Positions 1,616 through 50,400 of a stretch of DNA of 55,072 nt are shown here, piece by piece (within the stretch, counting starts at the first letter, position 1; the number at the start of each line of letters is the position of its first letter). A program made the position numbers and the translations under genes. The notes beneath the pieces are model-generated. The model searched no databases. It was not told where the DNA came from and saw only the letters and a program-made list of their open reading frames with translations. The stretch comes from a virus. The stretch spans positions 1 to 55,072 of the IMG/VR virus record IMGVR_UViG_3300025410_000023. One strand, written 5' to 3'.

Positions 1616-4600
1616 TTAACAATAACTTTCCTCACCAGTTAAAATACTTTGACGTACTACATTTACTTTCATACTACTAGATGCATTATTTGGTTTAAAT
1701 GTTATTACAACATTGCCGCTGTTAATAGATCCATCAAATGTACCAAGTTCGCCGTTATTTGTAATAACACCGTACTGGCTGATATAAACACTTATACCGT
1801 CTTGTATAACCATCATTTCTTCAGTGTGTATATTTCCGCTATCAACAATTTGTACAATATATTTGGCACTGGTATATACTGAGGCATCCCAGGTATCAAT
1901 TGTTTTAGCAGTTGATCCGCTAAATCCGTTATATGTACCACCGGATTGCATACTATTAGTAATGAATACACCGTCAATTGTTTTGTTAATAGGTTCTTGT
2001 CCAAGGACATCGCCAGCATCATTCATACCAGTATACAGTATTTTACCAACTGCTACATTTCCTAATGCCTTGATACCTCCAGCTGTTTTAATACTTGCAC
2101 TAACTGAGCCTAGATTAGCTCCATAGCTAGATAAACTGGCGTCTAATGTACTCGATACAATAAATTTATTAGCATAAATTGTACCAGTTGATATAACATC
2201 AACAAAAGTACCAGTGTTACTGCTAATTGTATCTAGTCCAACCCCTTGCATAAAGATTGTACCATTTACATTTAAGTCACCACCAATCGTAGCCGTTGTA
2301 CCTACATATAAATCTTTAGCAATGCCAACACCACCTAGTGTTTGTATAGAACCTGCTGATGCAGATCCTAATGTTGGTGATGTACTGTTTACAAGTAATG
2401 CGTTTGTTACTGTAGCCGCGCTTAATGTTGCGCCACCATTAGCACTTAAGAATCCTGTAATTGTTTCATTACCTGTGACCGCAAGATCTCCACCGATTGT
2501 AGCTGTTGTACCTACATATAAATCTTTCTTAATGTAAGCACCGCCTTTTGTACCAATAGATGCTAGATCGTTTACACCACCTAATGTTGGCTCAGTAGAA
2601 AATACAGTAATATTTTGATTAATAGAAACCCCGCCGTCAACTGCCAAAGATCCATTACCACTGTAATCGGCACCAGTTCCGCTGGCAATCCAAACATCTC
2701 CACCAAAATAAGCACCACCAGTTATGGATACATCAGCACTTGTATTACCTTGTGAACCGCTGACTCCTGCACCACCTGAAAGCTGTGTTCCAAAATGTAA
2801 AGCTAGACCAACATTTGCACCGCCATTTGGCACATCTAAGGCTGGGCCTGCGCCAACATCACCTGATCCATTAATAATTGTACCAACAGCAACATATAAA
2901 CCACCGTTGGCTACTCTTAGAGCCGCATCAGTTCCGGATGCATTTTGTGCACCAGTAACTTCTATGTTAGTAACCTCCATTAACCCTGTACTACCGTATC
3001 CTGATGTTGGGTTGTATGTAAAGGTTGTATCGTCAACTAATTGGTTTGATCCATTGATGTATGGAACAGTATAAGTATTGCCATAATTTAATACAACAGA
3101 ACCGCTAGCTCCTAGTGTTAATGTACCGTTGTATGTTGACATATCAACATTGTATACTCCGGTTAAACTACCACCTGTCATAGTAATATCGCCAGCAACA
3201 CCGCTAATGTTTAAACTTGTTCCAACTGTTAGTGTGCCAGCACCATTATAAGTTAAACCACTACTGTCACCTAGTGTTCCAGATCCGTCTGTGTTATATA
3301 CAACACCACCCAAAGTTACTAATGCTGTATCTTTGAAACTAGTAACTGATAAAGTAGTACCATCAAATGTTAAATTACTGCTGCCTACTAGATACGATCC
3401 GTTGTAGTATGAAACTTCGTTGGTGCTTAAGTTCGTTGGATCTACATAAGGTGCAGTAAATACAGCACTTGAATTAGATACTCCGCCTAGTGTTAAATTA
3501 CCGCTGTTATCTAATGTTAGGGTAGAATCGCCACCTTGAGTTGACAATATAGCACCAGTGCTATTAACAACAACTAGTGTGTTACCAGCATAATCTAACT
3601 GCGAATATCCACCAGTACTATTACTATATAGTTCAATTCCTAATCCAGGAGTTGCTACAATTTGAGTATCAGCATTGCCAGGAGCATTGGTGTTAACACC
3701 ATATAATTGTAAATTACCATTAAGTTGTAGGTAATAGTTGTCATAATGCCATTCAAAGTTACTATCAAAAGATGTAGAGCTTGTGGCAATTTGATAAGGA
3801 ACTTCGTACTGTGCTCCTCCTGATAGATTGGCAGCTTCACTAGAATTACCTACTGTTGTACCACTGGCACTTTGCCAAGTAGCAGTTGTAGCACCTGCAA
3901 CCCAGGTTAAAACCTGACTATCTGCTGTACCTGCAGGAATAAATGTTGTTGAACCGTCAGCATTTTGAATTGGAATCTGACCAATAGCACCACCACGTAA
4001 ATTTGTGGCTGTGGTTACATTGGCAGTCAAAATGTTAGTACCCGAGTTGTAAGTCATTCCTCCAACATTAGTCAAGTTACCTTGTGAATCAGAGAAAACA
4101 ATACCGCCAGGAATATTCAAATCAGTTGCTTGTAAATAAGTACTAGATACTTTACCGTTAACATATACGTTACCATCAATACCAACTCCACCACTTACAA
4201 TTAACGCACCGCTTTGATAATCAGTACTTACTGTAGTATCAACCAATAGCATACTGCCAGCTTTTAATGTGGCATAAGTTTCGCCTACAAACACGCCAGT
4301 AGATGTAGTTTCAGTACCGTTACTATAGAATTCAAAATACTTAGTATCGTCGGCTAGTACAAAAGCCGCATTTAAGTCCTGGCCGTTATAGTAGTGGAAA
4401 CGAATACCAATATCCTTACCGTCGTCTACAGTCCACTGACCATCAACACCAGTTGGCGGAACATGTAATTCAATTAAGTTATCTGTATAAACTGTGTTTG
4501 TGCTGGAAACATAAGTTGTAGCACCTTGGAACCACACATCATTCTTGAATACTGCCTCGCCACTAACACTTAATCCACCATCAATTCCAACACCACCGGC

Positions 4601-5842
4601 TACATAAATTGAGTTACTTGCATTTGTTCCTGTATTACTAGCTGTATCCATTACAACTAAATTTTGACCAATATAGGCACCACCGTTGCTTAATACCAGT
4701 GTACCATTTTTACCGGTACTAGCACGAGTATTTCCATCAATCCAAACATTTCGATTAACATACAAACCACCAGCCTGAATGCTAACTGCCGAGCTACTGG
4801 TTGATCCACTGCTGGTAGGAGTATTTGAGCCTGTGACAATGACATTACCAGCACCAGTTGGTTGTAGTTTGATATTGATATCAGAAGCACTACCGTGTGT
4901 ACCTAAAATTACACCAGTGCCGGCATTTGAACCAGTAACAGTCAAATAGTTACTACCGCCGCCGACTACAGCAAAACCAGTGGTATTACCTACACTAGCA
5001 CTCTGTCCCAAGTTAAATGTAATATTACCAGTACCGCCTGAACCTACTACTAATCCTACTCCAGCCTCGCCACCTGCACGAATAACACCGTTTCCGCCAG
5101 TAGCTCCACCAAATACATTAACATAGTTAGGACTATTAGCACCTAGTGTAGATGTTCCGCCAACCCATAAATCTTGTCCAATGCCTGTTCCACCTACTAC
5201 TTGCAAAGCACCAGTTTGTGTTGTAGTAGCATTTGTGGAATCATTAGCTAAAACTTTCTTTGTAAATATTGCACCACCTGCTACAGTCAATGCTGGTGCA
5301 GGATCTGTTATATCTCCTGTACCTTGAACCTGTAAATCAGCACCTGTATAAACTGTACCAGTAGTTTCGTCTATAGTAATTGCTACTTTAGTAGTTCCAC
5401 TACCATTTTGAGAAAAAACTCTCAATTGATTTGCGGCATCAACATCAATATTCCAGGTGCTGTTTGATTGACCTGTTAATCCACCAATTCCTGCATATCC
5501 TAGTACAAGTTGTCCACCTTCACTTTGTCCAGCGGCATTAATAGTAACATAATTGCTAGCAGAAATAAATCCTGTAGCTGTTGTATTACCAGTTAATGCT
5601 TCAATTGTAAAACTACCGTTGCCGACATTAACATCGCCGGCAACGTTTAAAATATTTTGTAGATTTGAAGGACCGTATATGGTAGCAGTTGACGCTAACA
5701 TTAGGTCTTTAGCAAACGCGGCTGCCCCGTTTACTTGTAAAATTCCAGTATTACCGGTAGATGTTGTAGCAGGGTTTGTGATTCCTTGAACTACTAGACC
5801 TGCCTTAACAATAAAATCTTGAGTGAGTGATGTTAGTGCCAT
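1616..5842 (-). CDS. Large tail-fibre-like protein (1408 aa) with about 14 GG-type repeats
   Basis: The protein starts MALTSLTQDFIVKAGLVVQG, shared with the 174-aa protein. Through its length it carries about 14 copies of a loose motif of the form G(A/S)LxVxGGVGIxxDLxVxG, for example TGALQVVGGTGIGQDLWVGG, SGALIVSGGVGIDGNVYVNG and LGGVGIAKDLYVGT. Such arrays are typical of beta-structured fibre shafts of marine T4-like phages. The last about 110 residues (AKYIVQI, GVITNNGELGTF) match the C-terminus of the neighbouring 266-aa protein, so a shared C-terminal domain is likely. Composition is very rich in Thr, Ser, Gly, Ala and Val. GGGAAA before the ATG is the ribosome binding site. A distal-tail or fibre role in host contact is inferred. 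Confidence 0.8.
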   Translation of the reverse strand: MALTSLTQDFIVKAGLVVQGITNPATTSTGNTGILQVNGAAAFAKDLMLASTATIYGPSNLQNILNVAGDVNVGNGSFTIEALTGNTTATGFISASNYVTINAAGQSEGGQLVLGYAGIGGLTGQSNSTWNIDVDAANQLRVFSQNGSGTTKVAITIDETTGTVYTGADLQVQGTGDITDPAPALTVAGGAIFTKKVLANDSTNATTTQTGALQVVGGTGIGQDLWVGGTSTLGANSPNYVNVFGGATGGNGVIRAGGEAGVGLVVGSGGTGNITFNLGQSASVGNTTGFAVVGGGSNYLTVTGSNAGTGVILGTHGSASDINIKLQPTGAGNVIVTGSNTPTSSGSTSSSAVSIQAGGLYVNRNVWIDGNTRASTGKNGTLVLSNGGAYIGQNLVVMDTASNTGTNASNSIYVAGGVGIDGGLSVSGEAVFKNDVWFQGATTYVSSTNTVYTDNLIELHVPPTGVDGQWTVDDGKDIGIRFHYYNGQDLNAAFVLADDTKYFEFYSNGTETTSTGVFVGETYATLKAGSMLLVDTTVSTDYQSGALIVSGGVGIDGNVYVNGKVSSTYLQATDLNIPGGIVFSDSQGNLTNVGGMTYNSGTNILTANVTTATNLRGGAIGQIPIQNADGSTTFIPAGTADSQVLTWVAGATTATWQSASGTTVGNSSEAANLSGGAQYEVPYQIATSSTSFDSNFEWHYDNYYLQLNGNLQLYGVNTNAPGNADTQIVATPGLGIELYSNSTGGYSQLDYAGNTLVVVNSTGAILSTQGGDSTLTLDNSGNLTLGGVSNSSAVFTAPYVDPTNLSTNEVSYYNGSYLVGSSNLTFDGTTLSVTSFKDTALVTLGGVVYNTDGSGTLGDSSGLTYNGAGTLTVGTSLNISGVAGDITMTGGSLTGVYNVDMSTYNGTLTLGASGSVVLNYGNTYTVPYINGSNQLVDDTTFTYNPTSGYGSTGLMEVTNIEVTGAQNASGTDAALRVANGGLYVAVGTIINGSGDVGAGPALDVPNGGANVGLALHFGTQLSGGAGVSGSQGNTSADVSITGGAYFGGDVWIASGTGADYSGNGSLAVDGGVSINQNITVFSTEPTLGGVNDLASIGTKGGAYIKKDLYVGTTATIGGDLAVTGNETITGFLSANGGATLSAATVTNALLVNSTSPTLGSASAGSIQTLGGVGIAKDLYVGTTATIGGDLNVNGTIFMQGVGLDTISSNTGTFVDVISTGTIYANKFIVSSTLDASLSSYGANLGSVSASIKTAGGIKALGNVAVGKILYTGMNDAGDVLGQEPINKTIDGVFITNSMQSGGTYNGFSGSTAKTIDTWDASVYTSAKYIVQIVDSGNIHTEEMMVIQDGISVYISQYGVITNNGELGTFDGSINSGNVVITFKPNNASSSMKVNVVRQSILTGEESYC
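2273..2527 (-). repeat. Internal near-identical repeat in the 1408-aa fibre gene
   Basis: Two copies of a segment of about 45 bp coding KDLYVGTTATIGGDL lie at about 2273-2317 and 2483-2527, offset by exactly 210 bp (70 codons). The DNA is nearly identical (cctacatataaatcttt in both), which suggests a fairly recent duplication within the repeat array. Confidence 0.7.
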
Positions 5843-20757: not shown

Positions 20758-22488
20758 TCAAGCAGTTGGAGGCGTTTGATCACCGCCTGGAATTTCTCCA
20801 GCTATTGGTTCTTCTTCACCTTCTAAAGGAGCAGGTGGTGCATTAGAATCTAATGCTCCTAAATCACCGTTAATGTTATTTGCAGTAATGCCAGCACCAC
20901 GTAATTCAGCACTTGCAGATGTATGTGCTTCGCTGTCAATGTTTTCATCTCTCCACATTTTTTCATTTTCTGCAATCTCTTCTGCACTAAGACCTAAGAA
21001 TCGTTTCAATGCAAAACGTTTGCTTACAAATGGAATAGCTACCATGGCAGCAAATGTGTTTACACGAGCAGTATCCATTTCTGCCTGACGATAACTTGCA
21101 AAGTTTTGTGGAGGATTAAATCTAATATCAAAAATATTACCATCAATATTAATGCCTTTAGTATGTAGATACACTTTAAATTCTGTATCAAACTCATCGT
21201 GCATTAAACTTTGAAGTCGTTCGCAGTATTTGTTGAATCGGAGTTCTTGTATATAGGCTGTCCCGACTCGTCCGTCATTAAAGTTGCTTCCTCCATCATC
21301 TGACCCAGTAGGAAGATAACTGCTAGGGATCCTAAGAGCTCTAAAGAGTTTATTAGTAAAGTACTTAAGGTCATCGATTTCTCCTAAATTTGTTCCGCCT
21401 GGTAAAATTTCAACTTTACTTCCCCTACCTTCTGCGGTTTGTGGGAAAAAGTAATCTTCGTTAATAGATAATGGATTATAACTTGTATCTACAACACTTT
21501 GACTTCCGCCCGTTGAACTAGGAATTCTACGTTGATTAACTTCGTTTTTAACACGTTCTACAAAACTCATAGCCAAGTGACTTGGCATATTACCTACATC
21601 AATATAGAACACTCTGCGCTCTGGTGCACGTTGTACACGATAGATAATAATAGCGTCTTCTAGTAATTCTTTTTGTTTAAAAACTTTAAAAATACTTTCC
21701 ATCAAGCTATTTCCAAATGGAAAATTATTATCTAGTCCCTCGCTCATACTAATATGAATAACGTGTCTAGCATCAATTGTATATTGATTTTGAGCTTGAC
21801 TGAATCTGCTTGAATTAGCATTGGTAGGAAATGATCCAACCATACCTCGTGATCCACCTGCGCCACCTTGACCAGTTCCGTATCCACCGCCGAATGTGCT
21901 ACCACCGCCTTGTTGATTGCTGGGATTAATAGCTGTTGTAGAAAGTGTTTCTAAATTAGGATTAAAATCACGGATAACATACTGTTCAGGCTTTTTACCT
22001 TCACTTTCGTTAACAATAATCTTGTCTACTTTTTGTGGATCTACATACATCCAGGCCTGTGTTTCTGGATCACGGACAAAAAATACATCACCATACTTAA
22101 ATGCATTACGTACAATTTTAAATATACGTTTATCAAACTTGTTTAATTTTGTCCACTGTTGTAGATATTTTTTAATAATTTTAATTTCAGTAGAAGTTGC
22201 TTGTTCTTTAAAGAATACATTAAATGGAGTTCCGTTTTCATCGTTAGATTGTGTGCAAAATTCAGCTAAAATATCTAATGCCGCATTAACTTCGCTGTCC
22301 CAATCCATGGTGTCGTACTGACCATATCTCTCTAAACGGTTAGGGTGACCTGAATAAACATCTGGCAAATAGCTAGAATAGTTGGTTCTACTTAATTGCC
22401 CACCACCGCCACCTCCGACCATTGCTCCGCTAACAGGACTTAGTTTGCCTGATGTATTCACTGGGGTAAAATAACGTTTCCAACTCAT
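20758..22488 (-). CDS. 20: Portal vertex protein gp20
   Basis: The 576-aa product has the T4 portal pattern: RYGQYDTMDWDSEVNAALDILAEFCTQ, FKYGDVFFVRDPETQAWMYVDP, VFKQKELLEDAIIIYRVQRAPERRVFYIDVGNMP and LRIPSSYLPTGSDD. The portal dodecamer forms the unique head vertex through which DNA passes, and T4 gp20 also starts head assembly. The start MSWKRYFTPVN at 22488 is preferred; a GTG ten codons upstream would overlap the preceding gene. Two low-complexity insertions, GGGGGGQ near residue 30 and a Gly-rich stretch near 190-215, are not in T4 gp20 (524 aa). The tail-end of the upstream gene lies only 4 bp away. Confidence 0.95.
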   Translation of the reverse strand: MSWKRYFTPVNTSGKLSPVSGAMVGGGGGGQLSRTNYSSYLPDVYSGHPNRLERYGQYDTMDWDSEVNAALDILAEFCTQSNDENGTPFNVFFKEQATSTEIKIIKKYLQQWTKLNKFDKRIFKIVRNAFKYGDVFFVRDPETQAWMYVDPQKVDKIIVNESEGKKPEQYVIRDFNPNLETLSTTAINPSNQQGGGSTFGGGYGTGQGGAGGSRGMVGSFPTNANSSRFSQAQNQYTIDARHVIHISMSEGLDNNFPFGNSLMESIFKVFKQKELLEDAIIIYRVQRAPERRVFYIDVGNMPSHLAMSFVERVKNEVNQRRIPSSTGGSQSVVDTSYNPLSINEDYFFPQTAEGRGSKVEILPGGTNLGEIDDLKYFTNKLFRALRIPSSYLPTGSDDGGSNFNDGRVGTAYIQELRFNKYCERLQSLMHDEFDTEFKVYLHTKGINIDGNIFDIRFNPPQNFASYRQAEMDTARVNTFAAMVAIPFVSKRFALKRFLGLSAEEIAENEKMWRDENIDSEAHTSASAELRGAGITANNINGDLGALDSNAPPAPLEGEEEPIAGEIPGGDQTPPTA

Positions 22489-22492
22489 ATTA

Positions 22493-24769
22493 TTATGCCA
22501 TTTCAAATAAATTACCACCTAGTGCTCTAGTAGCATCATAGGTTCTTTTGGTATTTTCTGCAGTCTGTTTTAGTTGTGCTAATATCTGCAAGTTAATAGT
22601 ATTTAACTGTTGTAATGATTGTGAAAGGCCAGACTGACTTGCAGTATCTATAATTTGTGCCATTTGGCTAGGAGTAATTACAGATTCACCTTCGGCAACA
22701 TTTAATGTTGCATCTGATTTTTCCCACCAACTTCCTGTCATTCCGATTGTACCGCTGTGTCTTCTGCCGCGACCATATTTTAGGGCATCTTCTGGATTTA
22801 CAGTTCTATCAGATTGATATTGTTCAAATAACGATGTTTTGCTCCTATCTACCCAACCTGCTATTCCCAACTCTTGTAATCCGTGGCCTCCTAATCGTTG
22901 CTTTTGTTGATCAAGCCAATTTTGATATTGTTGTGTCTGTTCTGTAGCTTGTCTTAACATTCTTTGTTGTTGACTTTCTCCAACTCCAGTTTTTTCATAG
23001 ATCCAATCACTGATAGAATCAATAGCAACCTCAAGGGCTTTCTTTAGATATGGAGTTATAAAATCAACAATTTTTTCAAATGTACTAATTAAAGTAGGTT
23101 TTACTTCTTCCCACATTTGAGTAAATGCAGGTTTTACTAACTTCCAAACTTCGGATAATCCTGAACCGATTCGATCAATTGTAGCAAAAATAGCAGCCTT
23201 CCAATCTTGATTTGGACCAAAGGCCGCTTTGATAATATCCACAGATTTACTAAGCCAATCTACCACATTAGTAACTGCAACATACAACGGAGATCCTTCT
23301 CTTAAATTTGTACTAATAAATTCTACCATTGCTAAACCGATATTTAAAATAGTTGGCATTAATGGTTGAATAGCTTTGTAAACTAAATTCATCATGCTCA
23401 TGCCTAATATTTTGATTCCTTGTTCAGTAACTCCTAAATTTGCCGCATAACTATTTGCAGATTTTAACTGATCTAATGCTGTTTCTTCTAGTGATTTTTC
23501 AACAGTCTTACTACCGTGAATTATATTTCTTCCAGATTGTATTAGTGCCTGAGGTAGCATTTCACCTTGTATTGTTTGTCCTGCTAGACCTAATTGATCG
23601 GCAAATTTTACAGATGCTACTGCTGTGTTACCTAATATAGAAGTAATTTGTTTACTCTTATCAGCAGATGACGCAGTAGATGCAAGTATTGATCTAATCT
23701 GAGCACCTATTTCTATACTCATTCCGCCGGTAGCAATTGCAATTTTAGTCGAAGCTTCATTTAATGGAGTATCAATTCCTCTGACTTGATTTTTTACTAC
23801 ATCAACTAAGTCTTTTCCTCCAACTGCTGCCGCAGAGGCTAACGCTTCTCTAACTTCTCCAGCTTTTTCTGGACTTAAACTATCGAGATATAATTGCCAA
23901 ACCTGATCATCTTCGGCCTTACGAACTTCAGCATCAATTTGGTCTCTACGTTTACCTGTAATTTTACTGAGTTCATCTAAGTTAGTCATATAATCAACAG
24001 TTAACTTAACCAGTTGATCTGTGGTGGCCGCATTTTGTTTACCTAATACGCCTTGGGCTTTCATCATTCCTGCTAGCATTTCAGATGCTTGTTGAGCAGT
24101 ATAACCCATTCCAAAAATTATGTTTTGATATCGACTATCCGGGCCTATTAATTTTGCATTAGCATCGACAAATTTGTTAATACCTGCCTGTACATTTAAT
24201 CCTGCTGATGCAAATACTTCAGAATTTTTACTAACAACAGATTGAAATTCATCCAATGACAAATATGACCTTGCGGCCATTGCTCGAATATCGTCCAAAC
24301 TTCCGGCAAAGCTAGCACCAGATTCAGTTAAGTTATGGTATACATCTAATAATAGTTCTTGATATTTAATCATGTCAGCAAATAACTGTGCTAGTGTTCC
24401 TACTCCTAGAGGAAGTTGATTGAATACTTCAAAGAAATCACTGAATTTAGCTTTGCCCTCTGCGGCCATCTTTGAAAAATCATATAGTTTAGACCCAAGA
24501 TTTACAAACTGGCCAATTGTACTTCCGATTATATTTCCCAATGTTGAAAAAAGTTCAGAAAGTAAATTACCTGCGCCCTGGAGTGCTTTAAACATTATAC
24601 CTACAGGCCCTGGTAATCCACTAGATGAGCCTCCAGTTGATCCACTAGATCCTCCTCCCGTTCCAGGAGTAAACTTACTCATTAGACGTTGTAAAGTCAG
24701 TAAATTAGCATTCATAGCCTGAGCTACTGCTAATAATTCTGCTAGTGTTGCTTCGGTTGCACCGTTCAT
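22493..24769 (-). CDS. Tape-measure-like tail protein (758 aa)
   Basis: A long, mainly helical protein with an N-terminal Gly/Ser linker (residues 36-50), hydrophobic helical stretches near 55-130 and 445-520, and many helices in between (ITGKRRDQIDAEVRKAEDDQVWQLYL). The C-terminal part has a motif typical of phage tail tape-measure proteins, TGSWWEKSDATLNVAEGESVITPSQMAQII (about 675-705). It lies upstream of the portal gene and divergent from a baseplate hub gene with chaperone-like features. In T4 the corresponding protein is gp29 (590 aa); clear similarity to it cannot be judged by eye. At 1.5 angstrom per helical residue it would span about 110 nm, which is a plausible contractile tail length (inference). 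Confidence 0.6.
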   Translation of the reverse strand: MNGATEATLAELLAVAQAMNANLLTLQRLMSKFTPGTGGGSSGSTGGSSSGLPGPVGIMFKALQGAGNLLSELFSTLGNIIGSTIGQFVNLGSKLYDFSKMAAEGKAKFSDFFEVFNQLPLGVGTLAQLFADMIKYQELLLDVYHNLTESGASFAGSLDDIRAMAARSYLSLDEFQSVVSKNSEVFASAGLNVQAGINKFVDANAKLIGPDSRYQNIIFGMGYTAQQASEMLAGMMKAQGVLGKQNAATTDQLVKLTVDYMTNLDELSKITGKRRDQIDAEVRKAEDDQVWQLYLDSLSPEKAGEVREALASAAAVGGKDLVDVVKNQVRGIDTPLNEASTKIAIATGGMSIEIGAQIRSILASTASSADKSKQITSILGNTAVASVKFADQLGLAGQTIQGEMLPQALIQSGRNIIHGSKTVEKSLEETALDQLKSANSYAANLGVTEQGIKILGMSMMNLVYKAIQPLMPTILNIGLAMVEFISTNLREGSPLYVAVTNVVDWLSKSVDIIKAAFGPNQDWKAAIFATIDRIGSGLSEVWKLVKPAFTQMWEEVKPTLISTFEKIVDFITPYLKKALEVAIDSISDWIYEKTGVGESQQQRMLRQATEQTQQYQNWLDQQKQRLGGHGLQELGIAGWVDRSKTSLFEQYQSDRTVNPEDALKYGRGRRHSGTIGMTGSWWEKSDATLNVAEGESVITPSQMAQIIDTASQSGLSQSLQQLNTINLQILAQLKQTAENTKRTYDATRALGGNLFEMA

Positions 24770-24845: not shown

Positions 24846-25715
24846 ATGCAGACCGTTTCAGGAATTCCTCGTAATAACCCATTGGCCAATTATATGCGCC
24901 AACCAAAAATTTATATCACATTACCTAGTCAAGGTCAATACTGGACTACGGGTAGTATTGTAATGCCTGAATCAGGAGAATTACCTGTGTTTTCAATGAC
25001 TGCAAGAGATGAGTTGTTGTTTAAAACACCTGATGCACTAATGAACGGGCAGGCTGTTGTAGATGTTATACAAAGTTGTATTCCTGCTATTAAGAATGCC
25101 TGGGACTGTCCTACTATAGATTTAGATACAATTTTAATAGCGATTAGACTAGCAACATATGGTACTAAAATGCCATTCACACATAAAATTCCTGTTATAA
25201 ATGAAGAAGTAGAATATGACTTAGATCTAGGAATGTTATTAGAACAACAACGAAATAACTATTGGATTGACCAAGTTGTTATTAATCCTGAATTTATTAT
25301 TTGTGTACGTCCGTTAACATATAAGCATATGACTCAAACTAGTATAAAGAGTTTTGAAACAACTAGAATACTTAATATGGTCAACGACAATAATATACCT
25401 GATGATAAAAAATTAGAAATGTTTAATACCAGCTTTAATAATTTAACCAAAGTAACTATTGATTTATTATCTGAAAGTGTGTATAAAGTTATAACTGCTG
25501 ATTCCGAAGTCACCGATAAAAAATATATCAAAGAATTTGTTGCCAATGCTGACAAGGATATTTTTGAACAGGTACAAAAACATCTCAACGAAATGAAAAA
25601 TCACAATGATCTTAAACCTTTAGAATTTTCAACTTCTCCAGAACAACAAGAGCAAGGCGCACCTGCTACCTACAGCATTCCTATTAATTTCAACGATTCT
25701 GATTTTTTCGGATGA
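24846..25715 (+). CDS. 26: Baseplate hub / tail assembly protein, T4 gp26 type
   Basis: The 289-aa product shows the T4 baseplate protein family pattern (gp26/gp51 group): PKIYITLPSQGQYWTTGSI, then LPVFSMTARDELLFKTPDALMNGQAVVDVIQSCIP and LDTILIAIRLATYGTKM. In T4 gp26 works in assembly of the central baseplate hub. The C-terminal third is charged and helical. CGGAG lies before the ATG. The gene stops inside the ATG of the next ORF (ATGA overlap). Just before the stop there is a T TTT TTC heptamer followed by a hairpin, so a minority longer product joined to the next ORF is predicted. It is divergent from the tape-measure-like gene, which fits a tail assembly chaperone role. Confidence 0.8.
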   Translation: MQTVSGIPRNNPLANYMRQPKIYITLPSQGQYWTTGSIVMPESGELPVFSMTARDELLFKTPDALMNGQAVVDVIQSCIPAIKNAWDCPTIDLDTILIAIRLATYGTKMPFTHKIPVINEEVEYDLDLGMLLEQQRNNYWIDQVVINPEFIICVRPLTYKHMTQTSIKSFETTRILNMVNDNNIPDDKKLEMFNTSFNNLTKVTIDLLSESVYKVITADSEVTDKKYIKEFVANADKDIFEQVQKHLNEMKNHNDLKPLEFSTSPEQQEQGAPATYSIPINFNDSDFFG

Positions 25716-25741
25716 GGCTTTTGACATTATCTTTGTCAGAA
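25703..25741 (+). promoter_or_regulatory. Predicted -1 ribosomal frameshift site
   Basis: The heptamer T TTT TTC (25703-25709) is in the right phase for simultaneous -1 slippage of two tRNAs. It stands 3 bases before the TGA of the gp26-type gene. After a 9-base spacer, TTTTGACA (25719-25726) and TGTCAGAA (25734-25741) can form an 8-bp stem with one G-U pair and a 7-nt loop. A -1 shift enters the frame of the 75-aa ORF exactly (CGG ATG AGG), giving a fusion of about 364 residues. Confidence 0.55.
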
Positions 25742-25939
25742 ATTGAAGAAGAAATTAAAAAAATTGACAATGAGTCAAAAGCCTTAAGAAAAGATATCTA
25801 TAAGTTAGCTTGGTTTATGCGCGGTTCTGTTAGTATAGAACAAGCATTTGGAATGGATATAGGAGACAGGAATATAGTCTCCGATTTAATAAAAGAAAAT
25901 TTAGAAACAACCAAAGAATCGGGCTTACCGTTCTTTTAA
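25712..25939 (+). CDS. Short conserved T4-like ORF downstream of gp26-type gene (75 aa)
   Basis: MRLLTLSLSEIEEEIKKIDNE continues with DIYKLAWFMRGSVSIEQAFG and ends LIKENLETTKESGLPFF. The combination LxWxMRG...IKENLETTKxSGLPFF is one I recognise from short ORFs of T4-like phages; the function is not established. The ATG overlaps the stop of the gp26-type gene (ATGA), giving translational coupling, and the frame is -1 relative to it, so the ORF may also be made as a C-terminal extension. It ends with a stop that overlaps the stop of the convergent gene. The layout resembles the second part of tail assembly chaperone pairs. Confidence 0.75.
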   Translation: MRLLTLSLSEIEEEIKKIDNESKALRKDIYKLAWFMRGSVSIEQAFGMDIGDRNIVSDLIKENLETTKESGLPFF

Positions 25940-27436: not shown

Positions 27437-27736
27437 TTAAATATTTTTTGTACCTTTCGGTTTAGGCCCTCTTTTTTGAGGGTTGGCTTTTTTATAAGCC
27501 TTTTCTTCTCGTCTTTGTTCTCGAACTAGTCTCAATCGTTCTTGATATGCAAGTCGAGAAATTTTTAACATTTCTTTTTCAAGAGACACCATTGCTCTTA
27601 ATTGCTTACGTACCTGTAGACCTATATCATAACTGGCCACAGATATAAAACTTTTATGGTAGTTATGCAAATTAACTGCACGTTCTATATATTCTGAATA
27701 TAGTTCTTTATAACGATCTAAGTACTTATTCGACAT
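27437..27736 (-). CDS. Small basic conserved protein next to gp46 (99 aa)
   Basis: MSNKYLDRYKELYSEYIERAVNLHNYHKSF is followed by a charged helical middle and a basic end, KRGPKPKGTKNI, with an AT-hook-like RGPKPKG core. I recognise the N-terminal pattern from small T4-like marine phage proteins of unknown function. The ATG at 27736 is chosen; the frame also has a TTG two codons upstream. It overlaps the 3' end of gene 46 by 11 bp, so it is probably translated with the recombination genes. DNA binding is suggested by the basic tail only. Confidence 0.7.
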   Translation of the reverse strand: MSNKYLDRYKELYSEYIERAVNLHNYHKSFISVASYDIGLQVRKQLRAMVSLEKEMLKISRLAYQERLRLVREQRREEKAYKKANPQKRGPKPKGTKNI

Positions 27737-29507
27737 AATCAATATCGTTGCTATAATTGGTAAATCCGTTTTCTTTTACAACTCTAAGTACATTATTAAC
27801 TCGACTTACTAGCTCGTCTTTATGACTAATAAGATATATATTTTTATTTCGTTCTCTGGCCATTTTCTTTAAAACAGCTAATGCACTTTCAACACCCGCA
27901 CTATCCATACCAGAGTCTACTAATTCATCGATGAATAGTAAGTTTATATTTTGATACAATCCTTCCCAAACATCTCGGAAAGCAAAACTTAGACTTAAGA
28001 TTAATCGATTGCGCTCGCCGCGTGATAAATTATCAAAATCTAAGTCTTGCCCTAACTGGGTAATTTCTACACTAAGATCATTTTGGAATAACACCTTATG
28101 TGGTAATCCTAATGCATCAATATAATGACTTAATCGTTTATTCAAATAGGTTAAATTTTGATCAATAATCTTTTTCCTTATAAAACTATCTTTGTTTGTT
28201 AGTAGTTTATATAAAAATTCTTGATGGTCTTTCAATCTAGTTGTTGTATTAATATGATCCCAAGTAATTTCTTGAATAGCAGTATTCTTTAATTCTTCTA
28301 TTTGCTCTTGATATGGATTGGCTTCGTCAATTTTTGTAATAAGTTCTTTTTCTAAACTAGCAACATTATTTTTATGACCCAATGCTTCAGCTTCGGTATC
28401 ATAAAATGTCTGCGGTTTATGTGGCTGATCACCTATTTTTTCAAGTTCGTCGCTGATTTTTTGTAGGTCATTGCCTACTTTAGTAGCATAAATTTGTGCT
28501 TCGTCTAAATGTTGTTGAGCAATTGACGACATTTCTTCGTGTTTGTGATCGTGAAGTGCTTGCTCGCAAGCTGGACAAGTTTTATCAACAAGTTTTCCTA
28601 GCTCATTGGTATACTTGGTCACTGATTTATTGGCCTGAGATAATGCACTTTCTAATGTTGCCTTTTGTTTATTAAGGTTTCTTAGTTCATTATCATTATC
28701 TTCCCAAACTTTTAGTGCTTGGTGAGCCAGCAATTCAGCTTCGATATCAACACTTTCAAGTTTCATTATTGCTTTACCCAAAGATTCAATGTCTTGATCT
28801 TTCTTAGAATCCCAAACAGAACTTTTAATTCCTAGGCTATCGATACTTTTTTGCACATTTTCATTGGCTTTTTTAATTGCTTCAATTCTTAATGTTTCTG
28901 CCTGTATTTGATCTTTCGATTCTTTAATAGCCAACTTTAAATTTTCAGCTTTTTCGCTTAATTGAGTTATACCTAATAATTGTTCAATGATTTCTCGTTG
29001 ATCTGCGGCCTTCATTGACAAGAAAGGTTCTGTATATGTATTAAGAGCTACTAAATGTTTAAACATTGTATGGCTTAATTCTAGCATTTGATCAATTGCT
29101 TTTTGTGTTTCTCTACTATCGCCCTGAGCATCATCTTCAATTTCGTCAGATTTTAACTCTTGATCATTTACATATAACTTAAGAATATTCGGCTTACGAC
29201 CTCTTTCAATACGATAATTATAGCCATTTTTTTCAAATTCGACTGTAACCAACATACCTTTTCCGTTGGTCTTATTGATTAAATTTTCTTTACGTATATT
29301 AGTAAGTGCTTGCCCATATACTGCATAACTCAACGCATTGATAATAGTTGTTTTTCCTGTGCCATTACGAGACCCGGTATCGTCACCACCTAAATCTACA
29401 TTCTCACCTAGTACAAGAGTAAGATGTTCTTTGGCAAAATCTACAGCCTGGGTTTGATTACCTACGCTCATAAAATTTTTAACAGTGATATTTTTAATTT
29501 TAAACAT
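27726..29507 (-). CDS. 46: Recombination endonuclease subunit gp46 (SbcC/Rad50-like ATPase)
   Basis: The 593-aa product has Walker A GSRNGTGKT (residues 45-53), a long coiled coil, a zinc-hook CPAC near residue 310, the ABC signature LSRGERNRL near 494 and Walker B NLLFIDELVDSGMD near 522. With gp47 it forms the Mre11/Rad50-like complex that processes DNA ends for recombination-dependent replication and helps break down host DNA. T4 gp46 has 560 aa. Its ATG overlaps the stop of gene 47 (TAATG), so the two are translationally coupled. It belongs to the operon driven by the promoter before gene 55. Confidence 0.96.
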   Translation of the reverse strand: MFKIKNITVKNFMSVGNQTQAVDFAKEHLTLVLGENVDLGGDDTGSRNGTGKTTIINALSYAVYGQALTNIRKENLINKTNGKGMLVTVEFEKNGYNYRIERGRKPNILKLYVNDQELKSDEIEDDAQGDSRETQKAIDQMLELSHTMFKHLVALNTYTEPFLSMKAADQREIIEQLLGITQLSEKAENLKLAIKESKDQIQAETLRIEAIKKANENVQKSIDSLGIKSSVWDSKKDQDIESLGKAIMKLESVDIEAELLAHQALKVWEDNDNELRNLNKQKATLESALSQANKSVTKYTNELGKLVDKTCPACEQALHDHKHEEMSSIAQQHLDEAQIYATKVGNDLQKISDELEKIGDQPHKPQTFYDTEAEALGHKNNVASLEKELITKIDEANPYQEQIEELKNTAIQEITWDHINTTTRLKDHQEFLYKLLTNKDSFIRKKIIDQNLTYLNKRLSHYIDALGLPHKVLFQNDLSVEITQLGQDLDFDNLSRGERNRLILSLSFAFRDVWEGLYQNINLLFIDELVDSGMDSAGVESALAVLKKMARERNKNIYLISHKDELVSRVNNVLRVVKENGFTNYSNDIDYVE

Positions 29508-41479: not shown

Positions 41480-44400
41480 ATGGCAGAAAAAATAATTAAA
41501 TCAGTTGAATTACTTCCAGAATTTTTACAAACAACTAAAAATTCTAAATTCTTAGCTAGTACTATTGACCAGCTTATTCAAAAACCTCAGTTAGAGCGCA
41601 TTGAAGGTTATATAGGATCTACAAATACTCCTACTTATACAGCAACAGATGTTTATATAACCGAAACGTTGCCATTACGTAGAGATTATCAATTAAATCC
41701 AGCATTAGTAGTTAAAGATATTAATGGAAATGTCAATGATGTTGTTGCATTAGATGACTTAATAAATGAAATTAATTTGAATGGTGGATCTGCAGAAAAT
41801 TTTGATAGAATATTTAGATCAGAATTTTATTCTTATGATCCTAGAATTGATTGGGATAAGTTTGTAAATTATCAAGAATATTATTGGCTAGTCAACGGAC
41901 CAGATACAATTACAATTGAAACTACTGATTCGTCAACATTATACATTGATGTTGACCTTATTGGAAAAGCAACATACACATCTCCAAATGGTGTAACATT
42001 ATCAAATGGAATGAAAATTCAGTTCGGTACAAATGTATCGCCGGAGTCATACCAAGGTCAAGAATATTTTGTTGAAGGTGTCGGAACATCTATAGTTTTA
42101 GTAGATTCTAGAAATTTAACCAGCAATGAAACATTTTCAACTGTGTTTAGTGAAACATTTGATTCAGTTCCATTCGATGAGTATCCATTTGATGGGTATA
42201 AACAATTACCTATAAATCCTGAATATATTACAATTAATAGAGCAAGTCCAGATTTAAATCCTTGGTCTAGATATAATCGTTGGGTACACAAAGACATTAT
42301 TACCACAAGTGCATTGTTAACAGGACAGCAACCAGTCTACCCTACTAATATGCGAGCCAAACGACCAATCATAGAGTTTGCGGCAGGGATGCAACTTTAT
42401 AATTTTGGATCAAAAGGAATTGGTAATGTTGATCTTATTGACAGCAAAACTACCAATGCATTTAATACTGTAGAAGGTTCTGCAGGATATTATATAGATG
42501 GTGTATTACTAGAACAAGGTCATAAAGTAATTTTTACTGCTGACACAGATAGTCTAATAAGAAACAATATATATGAAGTTGTATTTGTTGATATTGCTGG
42601 ACAACTAAGATTAACTTTACAAAAAGTTGAAACTCCTTCTGCTGGATCAGTAATTGGAGTTAATCTTGGAACAAAATATGCTGGTACAAGTTGGTGGTAT
42701 GATGGAACCAACTGGAATTATTCTCAGCAACATACTTCATTAAATCAAGCACCATTGTTTGATTTATTTGATGACTTAGGAAATAGTTATAGTGATACTA
42801 GGTATTACTCTAGTAACTTTAAAGGAAGTCAAATATTTGGATATAGTATTGGCTCTGGTACTGCTGATTTAGTGTTAGGCTTTCCTTTACAATATAGAAA
42901 TAGTGTAGGAGTTGGAACATATCTGTTTAATAATTATTTTATGACAGACACTATCACTATTTCTACTACAAATCAAACTGTAGAAACTATATCAACTGGT
43001 ATTACATATTTTAAAATAAATGATCAATATTTCAATGTATGGAAAGAAGCCGTTGAATATCCTATACCTGTATTAACTAGTTTATTAACAACTGCAACCT
43101 CTGAACAATCGTATTATGAAACACCATTGGGCCTTACAAACAATCCGTTAAATGGTCCCATACCTGCATTTACGCTCAGCGAAATTACAGATCACGTTAG
43201 CACTATGGCTAATCGAGATCCTGATTTTATTGGAGTAGTTCCTGGGGATAATAATTTAAGAGATTTGGCTGATCCTTCTAGTTACGGTACTCGATTCATA
43301 TCTAATATAAATCCAATTGCATTTGCTCATCTTTTCATAGGAAAAAAAGAGCATAGTGTCGTGGATGCTGTGACCAAAGTTGCTGACCAATATAATCAAT
43401 ACAAATTATCATTCCTAAGAAAAATTTCTAATCTTGATATTCAAACAGACCCGATAACAGCAGTTGATACAGCATTAACTGAAATTAATTTTGAAAAAGA
43501 TTTATTGTCTCCTTACTATCTATCAGATATGATAGCATATGGTACTGACAAAATTACTAAAACCTGGACTGTTACTAACACCAATAGTAAAATATTTCCT
43601 ATAACATCAGATTATGATCCTAATGCGTTAACATTAAGATCAGTATTGGTATATCTAAATGGAATTCAATTAATAAGAAACAGAGATTATCAATTTATTG
43701 TTGCAGATGCATCAGTTGAAATTCTTGTAGATATTGCAATTGGTGATACAATTGTAATAAATGATTATACAGATACAAAAGGATCTTTTGTTCCTCCTAC
43801 TCCTTCAAAACTAGGATTGTATCCAAAATTTACTCCTAGCATTTATGTTGACAATACTTATGTAACACCTACCACTGTGATACAAGGTCACGATGGTAGT
43901 ATTATGGTTGCATATAATGATTATAGAGATCTCATTATATTAGAGTTTGAAACTAGAATCTACAATAACATAAAAGCAGAATATAGATCAGAATTATTAG
44001 ATATTAATTCAGTTCTTCCTGGTGCATTTAGGAATAACGATTACACTCAAGATGAAATCAAACAAATTTTAGTAAAAGAATTTATTAAATGGACAGGTCT
44101 TTATAATGTTGATTATGTAACCAACACAGCATTTAATGAGACAAATCCTTTTACCTGGAACTACACTGAGAGTTATAACAACACGTTAAGTATTCCATTA
44201 GCAGGTAGTTGGAGAGCAATATACAAACATTTTTATGATACTGACAGACCAGATACTTGTCCTTGGGAAATGTTAGGATTTTCTGAAGAGCCAGAGTGGT
44301 GGACCAATGAATACGGTCCTGCTCCTTATACATCAGGAAATGATATCCTATGGGGCGATCTTGAACAAGGTATTATTAAACAAGGATCCAGAGCAGGAGT

Positions 44401-47400
44401 AAATTCAATCTATGCTCGTCCACAACTAAGTCAGTTATTGCCAGTTGATGATAGCGGAAAGTTAGTTGATCCTACAGTATTGTTGGCATCAGACATTACT
44501 CCTTATAGCAGAAGACAGCCTTGGGTATTTGGTGATCAGGGCGCGGCAGAAACTGCGTGGAGACGCAGTAGTTATTGGCCATTTGTTGTACAAAAATTAA
44601 TAGCATTAACTAAATCTGCTACATATGCATCATTGATGTATGATCCGATTAGAATCAATAAAAATATTGCAGGTCAATGGACATATGGCTCTAATTATGA
44701 ATTTTTAAATTTACAAAATGTTTATATTCAAGGACCAAATAATACATTAACCAGTGGTTATAGCGTTTTTGTTAGTGAAGTGGGTCGCCAGCGTACAGGA
44801 AATTATGATACAGAATTACAAAGTGATTTAAGTAACCTAACATTTAATTTATTTTATAAAGTAGGTGGATTTGTTAACAAATCTAAAATACAAATTATTA
44901 TAGATGCTATTGATCCTACAAGCACAAGTCCTGGAGCATTGTTAAATGCTGAAGATTATAATTTAATTCTTAATGTAAGCAATCCTATTAAATCATCAGC
45001 AATATCAGGAGTCATTGTACAAAAGAACAATGGAAAATTACTTGTTAGAGGTTTTGATACATCGTCTCCTTACTTTACAGTATACGGAGTAATTCGAAAT
45101 TCTAATGCCTCATCTATCACAGTTGGCGGTATATCATCATCCTATGTAAATTGGGCAGAAAGTTCAACTACAGGTCAAACAGGTTTATCAGCAGTTGATA
45201 CAACCACTGCAAATGCGGCAATAGCAGGAACATTTTATCAACAAGGACAAATTGTTAAGTATAAAAATTCTTTTTATCGTGTAACAACTAGTCACAGGAG
45301 TACTGAAAGTTTTAATCCTGCATACTTCCAAATATTGCCAGGATTACCAACAACAGGTGGAGCAACTGTAAAAACAGCAACAAAATTTGATGGAGTAGCA
45401 GTTAATATTCCATACGGGACAGAGTTTAATACGATTCAAGAAGTCTATGATGTGATACTTGGATACGGTGCTTGGTTAGAAGATCAAGGATTTATTTTTG
45501 ATGAGTATAACACCGATTTACAAACAGTATTAAATTGGGATTTTACTGGCAAAGAATTTTTGTACTGGACTACCCAAAATTGGGCAAATGGAAGTATTGT
45601 AGCATTAAGTCCATTTGCTGATCAAATTAAATTTCAATTGGCAAATTCTGTAGTTGATAATATTTTTAATAGTTTTTATGATTACAGTATATTAAAAGCC
45701 AATGCCGTTGCGTTCCCTCAAAAGGCATTGTCTGTTTCTAGAGATAATGGAATTTGTACAATTAAAACACTCAATTCAACTGACGGAATTTTCTTTGCCA
45801 AGTTGAATAGTGTACAAAAAGAACACGCTATCATATTCAATAATGCAACATTGTTTAATGATACTATATATGATATTCAATCTGGATACCACCAGCATAG
45901 AATGAAATTGGTTGGATTTAGAACAGCAAACTGGAATGGAGATTACTTCAGTCCAGGGTTTGTCTATGATTCTGCTATTATTTCTGATTGGAAAACTTAT
46001 ACAGATTACAACGCAGGTGATGTTGTTAGATTTAATGGTAATTATTACTCAGCAAATACTAATTTAGTTGGTACAACTTCTTTTGAATTCTCAAGTTGGA
46101 CAGTGTTGGGATCAAAACCAGTTGCCGCATTATTACCAAACTTTGATTATAAAATTAATCAGATTGAAGATTTTTATAGTTTAGATATTGATAACTTTGA
46201 TGCCGGTCAACAACAAATGGCACAGCATCTAACAGGATATACTCCTCGTACATACCTAAACAATATTTTTACAGATCCTATTGCACAATATAAATTCTAT
46301 CAAGGGTTTATTAGAGAAAAAGGAACTAAAAACGCAATTAGTAAATTAGCCAAAGCTACAATACATAATCTACAAGGACAAATAGATTATAGAGAAGAAT
46401 GGGCATTCCGTGTTGGATATTACGGATCATTTGAAACATTTAAAGAATTAGAAGTACCATTAGTAGAAGGAACTTTTGCAGACAATCCGCAAACAATTAA
46501 TTTTGTTGATTCTGTGCCTGTACCTCCTGCAGAGTTGATTAATTATAGTTTACCTAGTGATTTAGTTATAACTCCTTCAAATTATCAATCATCTGATACG
46601 TTTGTAACAACATCAGATATAGATGTAATGCAATTAAACACAGCAGGATATGCCAGATTTGATGATGTTAATTTAACTTCGTTTACTGAAGATGGACTGT
46701 TAACTTTTACAACCACTAATTCTATCAGCGAAGGTAGTATTATTTGGGTTGCAAATAAAAATAATAACGATTGGGATGTTTTAAGATATACTTTATCTCC
46801 CTCAAGAATTATAAGTATGACTCCTGATCCAATAGTAAATGATCAACTTAATTTTGTCACAGATGGTATTCACGGTTTATCAGCAGGTGATATTATTTCT
46901 GTCAGCGAATTTGACAGTACAATGGACGGAATATATAAAATATCTTCGATCCCGTCATTGAGTGAATTTAGTATTACTAGTACATCTACCGTTGCCATCT
47001 CTCAATTAATACCATCTAATCCTGGATTGTTGTTTACATTTCCTAGCGTTAGATACGATGGGTTTGATTTGTTGCCCGACGATAAAAACTTATTATCTTT
47101 AGAAGAAAATTCTAAAGTATGGGTTGACAATAATGGCACCGGACACTGGGCAGTGTATGAAAAAATTAAAAATTATAACGATTATGCTGTAACAGGATCT
47201 ACGTCCCCAGTTGACCAACGACTAGGTTGGAGTATTAGTAATAGAAAAAATTCTGATATTTTCTTAGTTGGTAGTCCTGGATTTGTAAGTTCTAATAATA
47301 CTGGAAGTGTATTTGTATACGGCGAAGTTCCGTACTCTGTTAACGAAAAATTTAGATACGGTATTAATTCTAATAAAACATATCATCACGGTTCGGATAC

Positions 47401-50400
47401 AGGATTTGGATGGTCTGTTGCCTACGACGAACAAGAATTTAATAATACAGGATATGGATTATTATTTGCAGGTGCTCCATTAACTGATAGAATATTATCC
47501 AATGATGCTCCTGGCGGGTTAAGGTTTGCTAGTTCTACAGGTACTACTTCTACATATGTACAAGAAGGTCTTGTAAAAATTAGTAGTATTTCTCCTATAC
47601 TTGTTGAAGAAAATACAGAAAAAGTATTACTGAGCCCTAATCCATCAAACTATGAACGTTTTGGAAGTAGTATATATCAGGCAAACACAGATCAAGGTAA
47701 ACTGCTATTAGTAGGTGCTACACAAGCATCTGGTATAGGTGTAGGTTCTGTGTATTCATACTGGATGACGACTACTGGTGGTAATATTAATATTGCTTAT
47801 AATGGAATATTATCAGCAACTGGAGTATCAGCAGGAAGTCAATGGGGATATACAATTAGTGGTTCTAATAATGCAGAGATAATTGCAGTAGGTGCTCCCG
47901 GTTATTCTAATAGAACAGGCCTAGTAAATATCTTCACAGGCACAGCTACTAATTACCTCCAAACGATTAATAGTCCTTTTGGCAAATATGCAAAGTTTGG
48001 CGAATCTATTTCTGTAAGTTCAACTGGTGACTATCTGTTTATTTCTGCACCGGAAGCAAGAGGCGACGATCAATCATATGGTAAAGTTGCTGTATATAAT
48101 ATGTCTTCTGGCACATATTCATTGATACAAATTATCAATAATCCTGTAGCAGGAGTAGGAATGAAATTTGGCCAATCTCTAGGAATAAGTCCTAACACAG
48201 ATGAATTAGTAATTTCTGCAATAGGTACAAATAGACATATTTCTGATACATTTGATAGATACTCTGTGTTGCTAGGAAACTATGTAAACGACTCAAACAG
48301 CGAATACAGTGATTCTCAAACTACATTTGATCTAGGATCAACATCTTTCTTTGATGATGTTATATATTCTGGTACGACTTATGTTTATAATAAGAAGGCA
48401 AATTTATTCAAACTTGCTGATGAATTAACTCCTGTTGATACAAATACTGGAACTAATTTTGGTTTCAGTGTTTCTGTAAATGCAAATAGCATTTATGTAG
48501 GAGCTCCAGCTTATAAAAATAATACAAATCCAGATACTGCTACAAGTGCATTCTATCAATTTTATAAAATCAATACAGGTACCCAAAGCTGGAGTTTAAT
48601 TAGATCTCAAGACGATTTAGTAGTAACAGATACAATACAAAAAGTTTCTTTAATTGATGCATTCAATGAAGAACTTGTTGATTATCTTGAAGTTATAGAT
48701 CCTGTAAAAGGAAAAATTTCAGGACTAGCAGAACAAGAATTAAAATATCGTTCTTCTTTTGACCCTGCTGTTTATTCATTGGGTACAAGTGCCACAGTTA
48801 ACGATCCTAATACAAATTGGTCCAACGAGCAAGTTGGAGAGCTATGGTGGGATTTATCAACAGCCAAATATGTATGGTACGAACAAGGTGAAGTAGAATA
48901 CCGTAAAAATAATTGGGGTAAATTATTTCCAGGTTCGAGTATTGATGTATATGAATGGGTTGAATCAACAATACTACCTAGTCAATGGGCTAGCCTAGCA
49001 GATACCGCTGTTGGGTTAAGCAATGGTATTAGTGGACAACCTAAATATCCAAATAACGATATTGTTGCAGTTAAACAAATTTATAATCCATTAAGTGATT
49101 CATTTACAAATTATTATTACTTCTGGGTAAAAAATAAAACAACTGTTCCTAATGTAAAAAATAGAAGAATATCTGCGTTTGATGTTGCAGAAATAATTAC
49201 CAATCCTAAATCATATGGATTAATGTATATTTCTGCATTATCTAGAGATGCAGTCGGAGTTGCTAATGTTGGAAACTTATTGGTTGATGATAGAATACAT
49301 TTAAACATCACATCAGATGTTATTGATAATACAATTCCTCGTCATACTGAATGGTTGCTGTTACAAGAAGGGTCAGCAGAAAGTGTACCTAACACATTAC
49401 TAGAGAAAAAACTTATAGATAGTTTAATAGGTCATGATAGCCTGGGAAATCTTGTACCTGATCCTGCACTGTCTGAAAGAGCAAAATATGGTATTGGTAT
49501 TAGACCAAGACAGACTTTGTTTAAAAATAGATATTCTGCACTAAGAAATATTATTGAATTTGTAAACAATGTGTTGGTTGATCAGAGAATTACAGGTAAT
49601 TACAGTTTTGTAAATCTTAATAAACAAGAACAAATTCCTGATGTAACAACTCACGAATATGATCAATCGGTTGAAGATAACGAAGCATTATTATTAATTG
49701 ATACACAATTATTTGCCACAGCACAATTATCTTGTACTGTAGAAAATGGTAAAATAACCAGTGTTACAATTAATAATCCAGGATATGGATATAAAATTAG
49801 TCCTACAGTTTCTATCAACAGTAGTACGGTTGCATCTATTAGTACAACAATTGATGCAAATGGGCGTGTTGTTTCTGTTAACATTGAGAATGCTGGTAGT
49901 GGTTTTACAGTTCCTCCTGAGTTAACAGTAAGACCTTATACTGTTATTGTACAGGCCGATTCTACCTATAACGGTAAATGGACTAAATTTATATTTGACA
50001 CAGATTTTAAAACTTGGGTAAGATCACATACTCAGGCTTATAATACAACTTTATATTGGAATTATATTGATTGGGTTGATTCTTCATATAATCCTTTTGT
50101 AGATATTGCATATACAATAGATGAATTATACGAGCTTAATGAAATAACTGTATCTACTAGACAATATGTTAAAGTTAAAAATGCAGGATTAGGTTATTAT
50201 GTTATATTAGAAAAAATAGATACTGGCAACGGAACATTTGATTCTGATTATAATATTGTTTATTCTCAAAATGGAACAATAGAGTTGTCATCTAATTTAT
50301 GGGACATTAGAAATACAAATCTTGCTTATGATGAAAATACCTACGATCAAACATTGTATGATCAAACTCCTGATGCTGAATTATTGTATATTTTAACAGC

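Follow-up and report, generated by a model that had tools for sequence, protein, structure and literature searches.

Tail assembly chaperones exist in a short and a long form, and many phages make both forms by frameshifting; downstream of the slip, a stimulatory RNA structure is common in -1 frameshift genes and not obligatory. Xu, Hendrix and Duda reportedly described lambda gpG/gpGT and other frameshifted tail assembly chaperones in 2004. In lambda, a -1 shift late in the short gene, beside the tape-measure gene, gives a short major product (gpG) and a long minor product (gpGT).

In T4, the long and short tail assembly chaperones are gp51 and gp26 respectively, according to papers that cite Vladimirov, Gautam & Davidson 2022 (Virology 566:9-15). 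One such paper (PMC10885494) states that some T4-like phages do not frameshift but have separate genes for the short and the long chaperone, and according to another (PMC12846349) the TAC-N genes of T4-like phages are known to carry poly-T slippery signals. Cyanophage 'gp51' was reported to have only ~20% of the length of T4 gp51 (Sullivan et al. 2010, PMC3037559), and the accessible portion of that paper notes this shortness without a frameshift explanation. The word frameshift does not occur in the main text of the genome papers for the phages RaK2, CBB and Atu_ph07.

Here we describe a gp26-type gene in the window, by which we mean the whole stretch of 55,072 nucleotides that was analysed (IMG/VR virus record IMGVR_UViG_3300025410_000023). 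With a probability that we put at roughly 0.9, the gene encodes a tail assembly chaperone of the T4 gp26/gp51 family, produced in two forms from one gene by a -1 frameshift. An earlier note on this DNA had expected such a frameshift to link T4 hub assembly factors with the tail chaperones of other phages; that link holds by homology, but it is not new, having been made by Vladimirov et al. 2022, as judged from the citing papers. Both the general mechanism and its link to the T4 hub genes are prior work, and the present case is real and widespread and of a known kind. What is apparently new is its reach into the RaK2-like jumbo phages and its association with a divergent tape-measure-like gene.

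The junction in the window

The 289-aa protein matches phrog_150 'baseplate hub' (E 2e-14) and PF12322 T4_baseplate, the latter with 43.2 bits against a curated cut-off of 24.5. The 3' end of its reading frame is GAT TTT TTC GGA TGA, which holds a heptamer at 25703-25709 in X XXY YYZ phase upstream of the frame-0 stop, and a separate 75-aa ORF (25712-25939, + strand) lies inside the extension that would be read after a slip (Table 1). Two observations made earlier from the letters are confirmed in the window sequence: T TTT TTC occurs in slippery phase 3 bases before the stop, and the ORF that follows, overlapping by ATGA, is read in the -1 frame. A slip at the heptamer would join 286 frame-0 codons to 78 further codons, and -1 programmed frameshifting very probably makes the resulting 364-aa fusion beside the 289-aa protein.

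Table 1. Features of the predicted frameshift locus and its neighbours, in window coordinates.
Feature	Position	Strand	Basis or remark
gp26-type gene, 289 aa, short (TAC-N-like) product	24846..25715	+	phrog_150, PF12322, AlphaFold model
Putative slippery heptamer T TTT TTC	25703..25709	+	frame 0 GAT TTT TTC; after -1 slip TTT TTT CGG
Frame-0 stop	25713..25715	+	one codon (3 nt) past heptamer
Predicted -1 frame extension (TAC-C-like), 78 codons from slip	25703..25939	+	constant length, homology to jumbo-phage tails
Local 8-bp hairpin	25719..25741	+	25719-25726 pairs with 25734-25741, 9-nt spacer
Downstream RNA region	25716..25763	+	GGCTTTTGAC (25716-25725) can pair weakly with 25754-25763, the stem register of relatives
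Tape-measure-like protein, 758 aa, divergently transcribed	22493..24769	-	same divergent position and profile homology in relatives
Portal protein (gp20-type), conserved neighbour	20758..22518	-	phrog_213, E 3e-114; order kept in named jumbo phages

Taken by itself, the window is weak evidence. TTTTTTC is not enriched in it (21 copies found, 20.75 expected), and the -1 phase of the following ORF carries little meaning because any ATGA overlap fixes that phase automatically. Apart from the site at 25703-25709, no T TTT TTC lies in phase in the window's ~16,800 ORF codons. The hairpin that the earlier note had drawn, with its 9-nt spacer, is present, but it does no better than shuffled sequence, folding at -7.3 kcal/mol with a z of about -0.5 (dinucleotide shuffles), and its position is not conserved among relatives; against synonymous recoding, the downstream structure of the window has a z of -0.6. 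Support far above chance for the predicted frameshift comes only from comparison across relatives.

Three other features of the window were observed in passing. In a 101-aa ORF on the minus strand (27437-27742), A AAA AAT stands in phase 3 nt short of the stop, and a 145-aa ORF lies shortly downstream; a single ORF of 4,301 aa (41480-54385, +) follows the gp6-type baseplate wedge gene; and ARAGORN places a tRNA-Ser (GCT) at 4911-5000 (-) inside a same-strand ORF of 1,408 aa, which is possibly a false call.

Conservation of the slip site and the -1 frame

Across ~180 relatives, T TTT TTC occurs in 183 of 185 FF-ending junctions, a count that includes near-identical loci and does not represent independent events, and T TTT TTT occurs in the other two. 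The heptamer is kept down to ~25% protein identity, at junctions from freshwater contigs, cyanophages, KVP40-like vibriophages and the RaK2-like, Atu_ph07 and PA5oct jumbo phages. Every testable junction in the close metagenomic relatives has it (79/79, the window counted); outside this set are L167, in which a duplication interrupts gp26 before the site, and L181, which is truncated. It is likewise found in L013 and L015 (~48% identity), in one Phosso-like locus, in KVP40-like R10Z, Cronobacter LPCS28 and Acidovorax ACP17, and, for the cyanophages, in four named phages, a 595-kb metagenomic phage and 79 metagenomic loci. The jumbo phages with T TTT TTC are Atu_ph07, Phosso, PA5oct, RaK2, 7t3, SCTP-2, 121Q, Vibrio 2.275.O, CBB, XaC1, Hallingskeid, BF, GAP32 and XbC2, while XacN1 and CM1 have T TTT TTT at the same site and a frame-0 stop ~30 nt later. 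Hence the heptamer and the -1 phase, on whose conservation the earlier note had staked its prediction, are retained in essentially all FF-ending junctions. The frame-0 stop follows the heptamer by 3 nt in 45 of the close relatives' loci and by 12 nt in the remaining 34, and by 3 to 33 nt in jumbo phages; with stops 12 nt away in some close relatives and many relatives having no start codon, the ATGA overlap is incidental.

At the end of T4 gene 26 no slippery site was found, and Ackermannviridae phage CBA120 has no canonical heptamer at its junction, only ATT TTC. In the latter (L204), the -1 frame stays open beyond the end of gp26 and encodes a gp51-like tail (3289-3471). Synechococcus phage S-SCSM1 (L038) shows an apparent insertion of ~11 nt past the gp26 stop (3724-3740) that breaks the -1 frame, and its gp51-like tail continues in the +1 frame, possibly through a real change, possibly through a sequencing error.

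After dereplication to 55 close relatives, the two Phe codons and the codon in front of them, which together form the slip site, each reach a synonymous identity of 1.00, compared with 0.50 +/- 0.15 for codons upstream. Various residues (D, N, S, H, A, R, Y, G, T) stand in front of FF, and every one of them is encoded with T in the third position; given each gene's codon usage, the chance of this third-position T together with TTT is ~10^-26 over 72 sites, which are partly redundant and not fully independent, making the true figure less extreme. It might be supposed that an invariant FF and T-rich codon usage preserve the heptamer by protein constraint alone, and FF is indeed invariant in the protein and the genomes are A+T-rich. 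However, full identity at positions free to vary synonymously is hard to obtain in this way, the other FF dipeptides in these genes are written as the heptamer in just 1 of 11 cases, and Acidovorax phage ACP17 keeps the heptamer despite GC-rich flanks, so that protein constraint alone is scarcely credible as an explanation. Comparison shows selection at the putative slip site that goes beyond the encoded amino acids. Downstream, the -1 tail is open and, counted from the slip, has a length of exactly 78 codons in all close relatives whose tail is complete; conservation starts at the slip site itself, upstream of any start codon. Tails of the window clade match those that jumbo phages have in the -1 frame (hhalign prob 99.3), and phrog_18291, of unknown function, is the predicted frameshifted C-terminal domain in RaK2-like phages (E 2e-36 at 4313-4534 of the 121Q locus, L025). 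A separate downstream protein could also arise by ordinary translational coupling, through termination and reinitiation at the ATGA, the T-run being incidental. The window has the ATGA, an ATG falls within the first 10 codons of the -1 frame in 30 of 79 close relatives, and GenBank records annotate separate ORFs, with no joined gene among those examined. Yet such an ATG is missing from the other 49 of the 79, and in roughly a third of close relatives the first 25 codons are free of ATG, GTG and TTG alike; with so many tails devoid of an early start codon, reinitiation is therefore not the general route. Coupling also fails to account for conservation that begins at the slip site, for a heptamer invariant at synonymous positions and for T4 gp51, in which the cyanophage-type C-terminal domain is covalently part of the protein, and we regard it as very improbable. 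The comparison shows the -1 domain to be under selection, with fusion as the only route to it in many relatives. The -1 ORF of the window has an ATG, so both routes are possible there and may include some free C-terminal product by reinitiation.

Evidence for RNA structure beyond the heptamer differs between lineages. In the window clade, 50-nt segments starting 10-22 nt past the first base of the heptamer have a mean z of about -1.7 to -1.95 (mononucleotide shuffles); in the same scan, z stays close to 0 upstream and between +40 and +90 and is -0.8 at +120. The 58 nt after the heptamer have a mean MFE of -13.1 kcal/mol, compared with -7.3 kcal/mol in synonymous-codon resampling (sd of family means 0.4), and a stem register in which nt 7-16 face nt 45-54 is paired in 0.689 of cells, compared with 0.586 +/- 0.016 under the synonymous-codon null. 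One subclade has a GGCUCUUAAC/GUUAAGAGCC stem, in which L189 has G-C in place of A-U. Cyanophages have hairpins of the GATCC-ATAT-GGATC type, with a mean z of -2.2 at this position, and RaK2-like and other jumbo phages have little structure on average (mean z -0.9; Atu_ph07 -4.0). RNAalifold returned no common structure over 55 close relatives (zero energy). The support for a predicted structure is therefore confined to these statistics and to one stem register and, as the structure varies by lineage, it would help in some lineages without there being a fixed hairpin.

Relation to T4 gp26/gp51 and to the tape-measure-like neighbour

The profile of the predicted fusion aligns end to end with that of the cyanophage fusion (prob 98.3), phrog_634 is common to the cyanophage -1 tail (E 3e-29) and the C-terminus of T4 gp51 (E 1e-23), and T4 gp51 and gp26 are both PF12322 proteins; thus, one frameshifted gene would correspond to the T4 pair 26 and 51. 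The tail of the window clade and jumbo phages reaches the cyanophages only within the full-length fusion profile; comparing profiles of the tails alone, window clade against cyanophages or T4 gp51, gave no significant match. A first gp26 alignment of 18 diverse proteins (A1) was too divergent for scanning the collection, and closer sets were used. By homology, the short form belongs to the gp26 family and the long form is the putative gp51 counterpart, linked through the cyanophages, which makes a chaperone role likely. The AlphaFold model of the 289-aa protein (pLDDT 81.5) best matches T4-like baseplate hub assembly proteins in a viral library, and a Foldseek comparison of this model with the PDB gave nothing significant. 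The HK97 tail assembly chaperone 2ob9 aligned with Z 5.0 over 102/107 residues, ranking 29 among unrelated rows, which is within noise.

In nearly all loci of the window clade, a long ORF (~670-1,130 aa) lies on the opposite strand and starts within ~35-155 nt of gp26. The same holds for most jumbo phages checked, the exceptions, in the stretches examined, being Atu_ph07, XacN1 and Vibrio 2.275.O. The 758-aa protein of the window is homologous to the RaK2-like set by profile comparison (prob 99.8), a method that detected no homology to T4 gp29 or to the cyanophage gene. A chaperone gene usually lies immediately upstream of the tape-measure gene; in the window clade the two are adjacent and divergent, which lowers the case for a classical lambda-type module but not that for a pair working like gpG/gpGT. 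In the CBB virion proteome (PMC5259590), CBB_251, the homologue of the 758-aa protein, is a major virion protein, covered to 50% by 29 peptides. In RaK2, the protein of this neighbouring gene, gp088, was not detected (PMC3622015). Synteny and the one virion proteome lead us to predict that the pair serves the divergent 758-aa protein.

The shift could be real and the protein nevertheless a structural component of the baseplate hub, the fusion being a minor hub subunit with no chaperone function. This is how the names read: the database families are called 'baseplate hub', and CBB_250, the gp26-type protein of CBB, is labelled 'structural protein' in its record. Against this, neither CBB_250 nor CBB_249 (the tail) is listed between CBB_247 and CBB_251 in the examined part of the virion table, which is consistent with a chaperone, and their neighbour CBB_251 is abundantly represented there (PMC5259590). 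Furthermore, in cyanophages and KVP40-like R10Z a long tape-measure-type gene lies directly downstream of the pair, and proteins of the T4 gp26/gp51 type are reported as chaperones by papers citing Vladimirov et al. We therefore consider a purely structural role improbable.

On the chaperone reading, most ribosomes would stop at 25713 and give the 289-aa short form (like T4 gp26, TAC-N), and a fraction would slip back one base at T TTT TTC to give the 364-aa long form, consisting of the N-terminal part of the short form joined to a C-terminal domain (like T4 gp51, TAC-NC). Downstream RNA structure would help the slip in relatives, the window's own structure being weak. By analogy with lambda gpG/gpGT, both forms might coat a tape-measure protein, probably the 758-aa neighbour, recruit tail-tube subunits during assembly and then leave. 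The short/long pair resembling G and GT that the earlier note had proposed is strongly supported at the level of its genomic signature, by the conserved heptamer, the -1 frame and homology; how often ribosomes slip, that the fusion is made and that it binds a tape-measure protein are inferred.

Place of the locus among known systems

This reading would correct how a tail-assembly gene is annotated across a phage group that is both large and abundant, for which the GenBank records examined hold no joined gene, and would give phrog_18291 an identity as a frameshifted C-terminal domain. A frameshifted tail would likewise explain the reported shortness of cyanophage 'gp51' (PMC3037559). The locus also offers an evolutionary test case, in that most lineages appear to make the same short/long pair through ribosome slippage, where T4 uses two genes. 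We lean, with some reserve, towards a history in which frameshift expression of the gp26/gp51 chaperone is ancestral to the whole T4-related lineage, from cyanophages to phages of 500-600 kb; T4 genes 26 and 51 would then be a derived duplication with the fusion fixed in DNA, and in RaK2-like and related lineages the chaperone would have become uncoupled from a now-divergent tape-measure gene.

The proposed likeness to lambda is one of mechanism and not of demonstrated sequence homology; the tape-measure-like gene of the window is divergent, and the lambda slippery sequence differs from T TTT TTC. In Vandenendeviridae and Andersonviridae (phage Adele), the open -1 frame is conserved over 200 bp, like that of the window, and the end of TAC-N has an invariant poly-T slippery motif, GTTTTT; these belong to another phage group, in which, unlike the window, the chaperone lies upstream of the tape-measure gene (PMC12846349). 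Kyanoviridae and Schizotequatrovirus have gp26 followed by a short 'gp51', with T TTT TTC again set one codon ahead of the stop, and the cyanophage -1 tail is homologous to T4 gp51; in cyanophages and KVP40-like phages the tape-measure-type gene is directly downstream on the same strand, whereas that of the window is divergent. T4 itself, as in the window, has a short form in the gp26 family and a long form that corresponds to gp51, but its two forms are encoded by separate genes, 26 and 51, where in the window one gene and a predicted -1 shift would give both.
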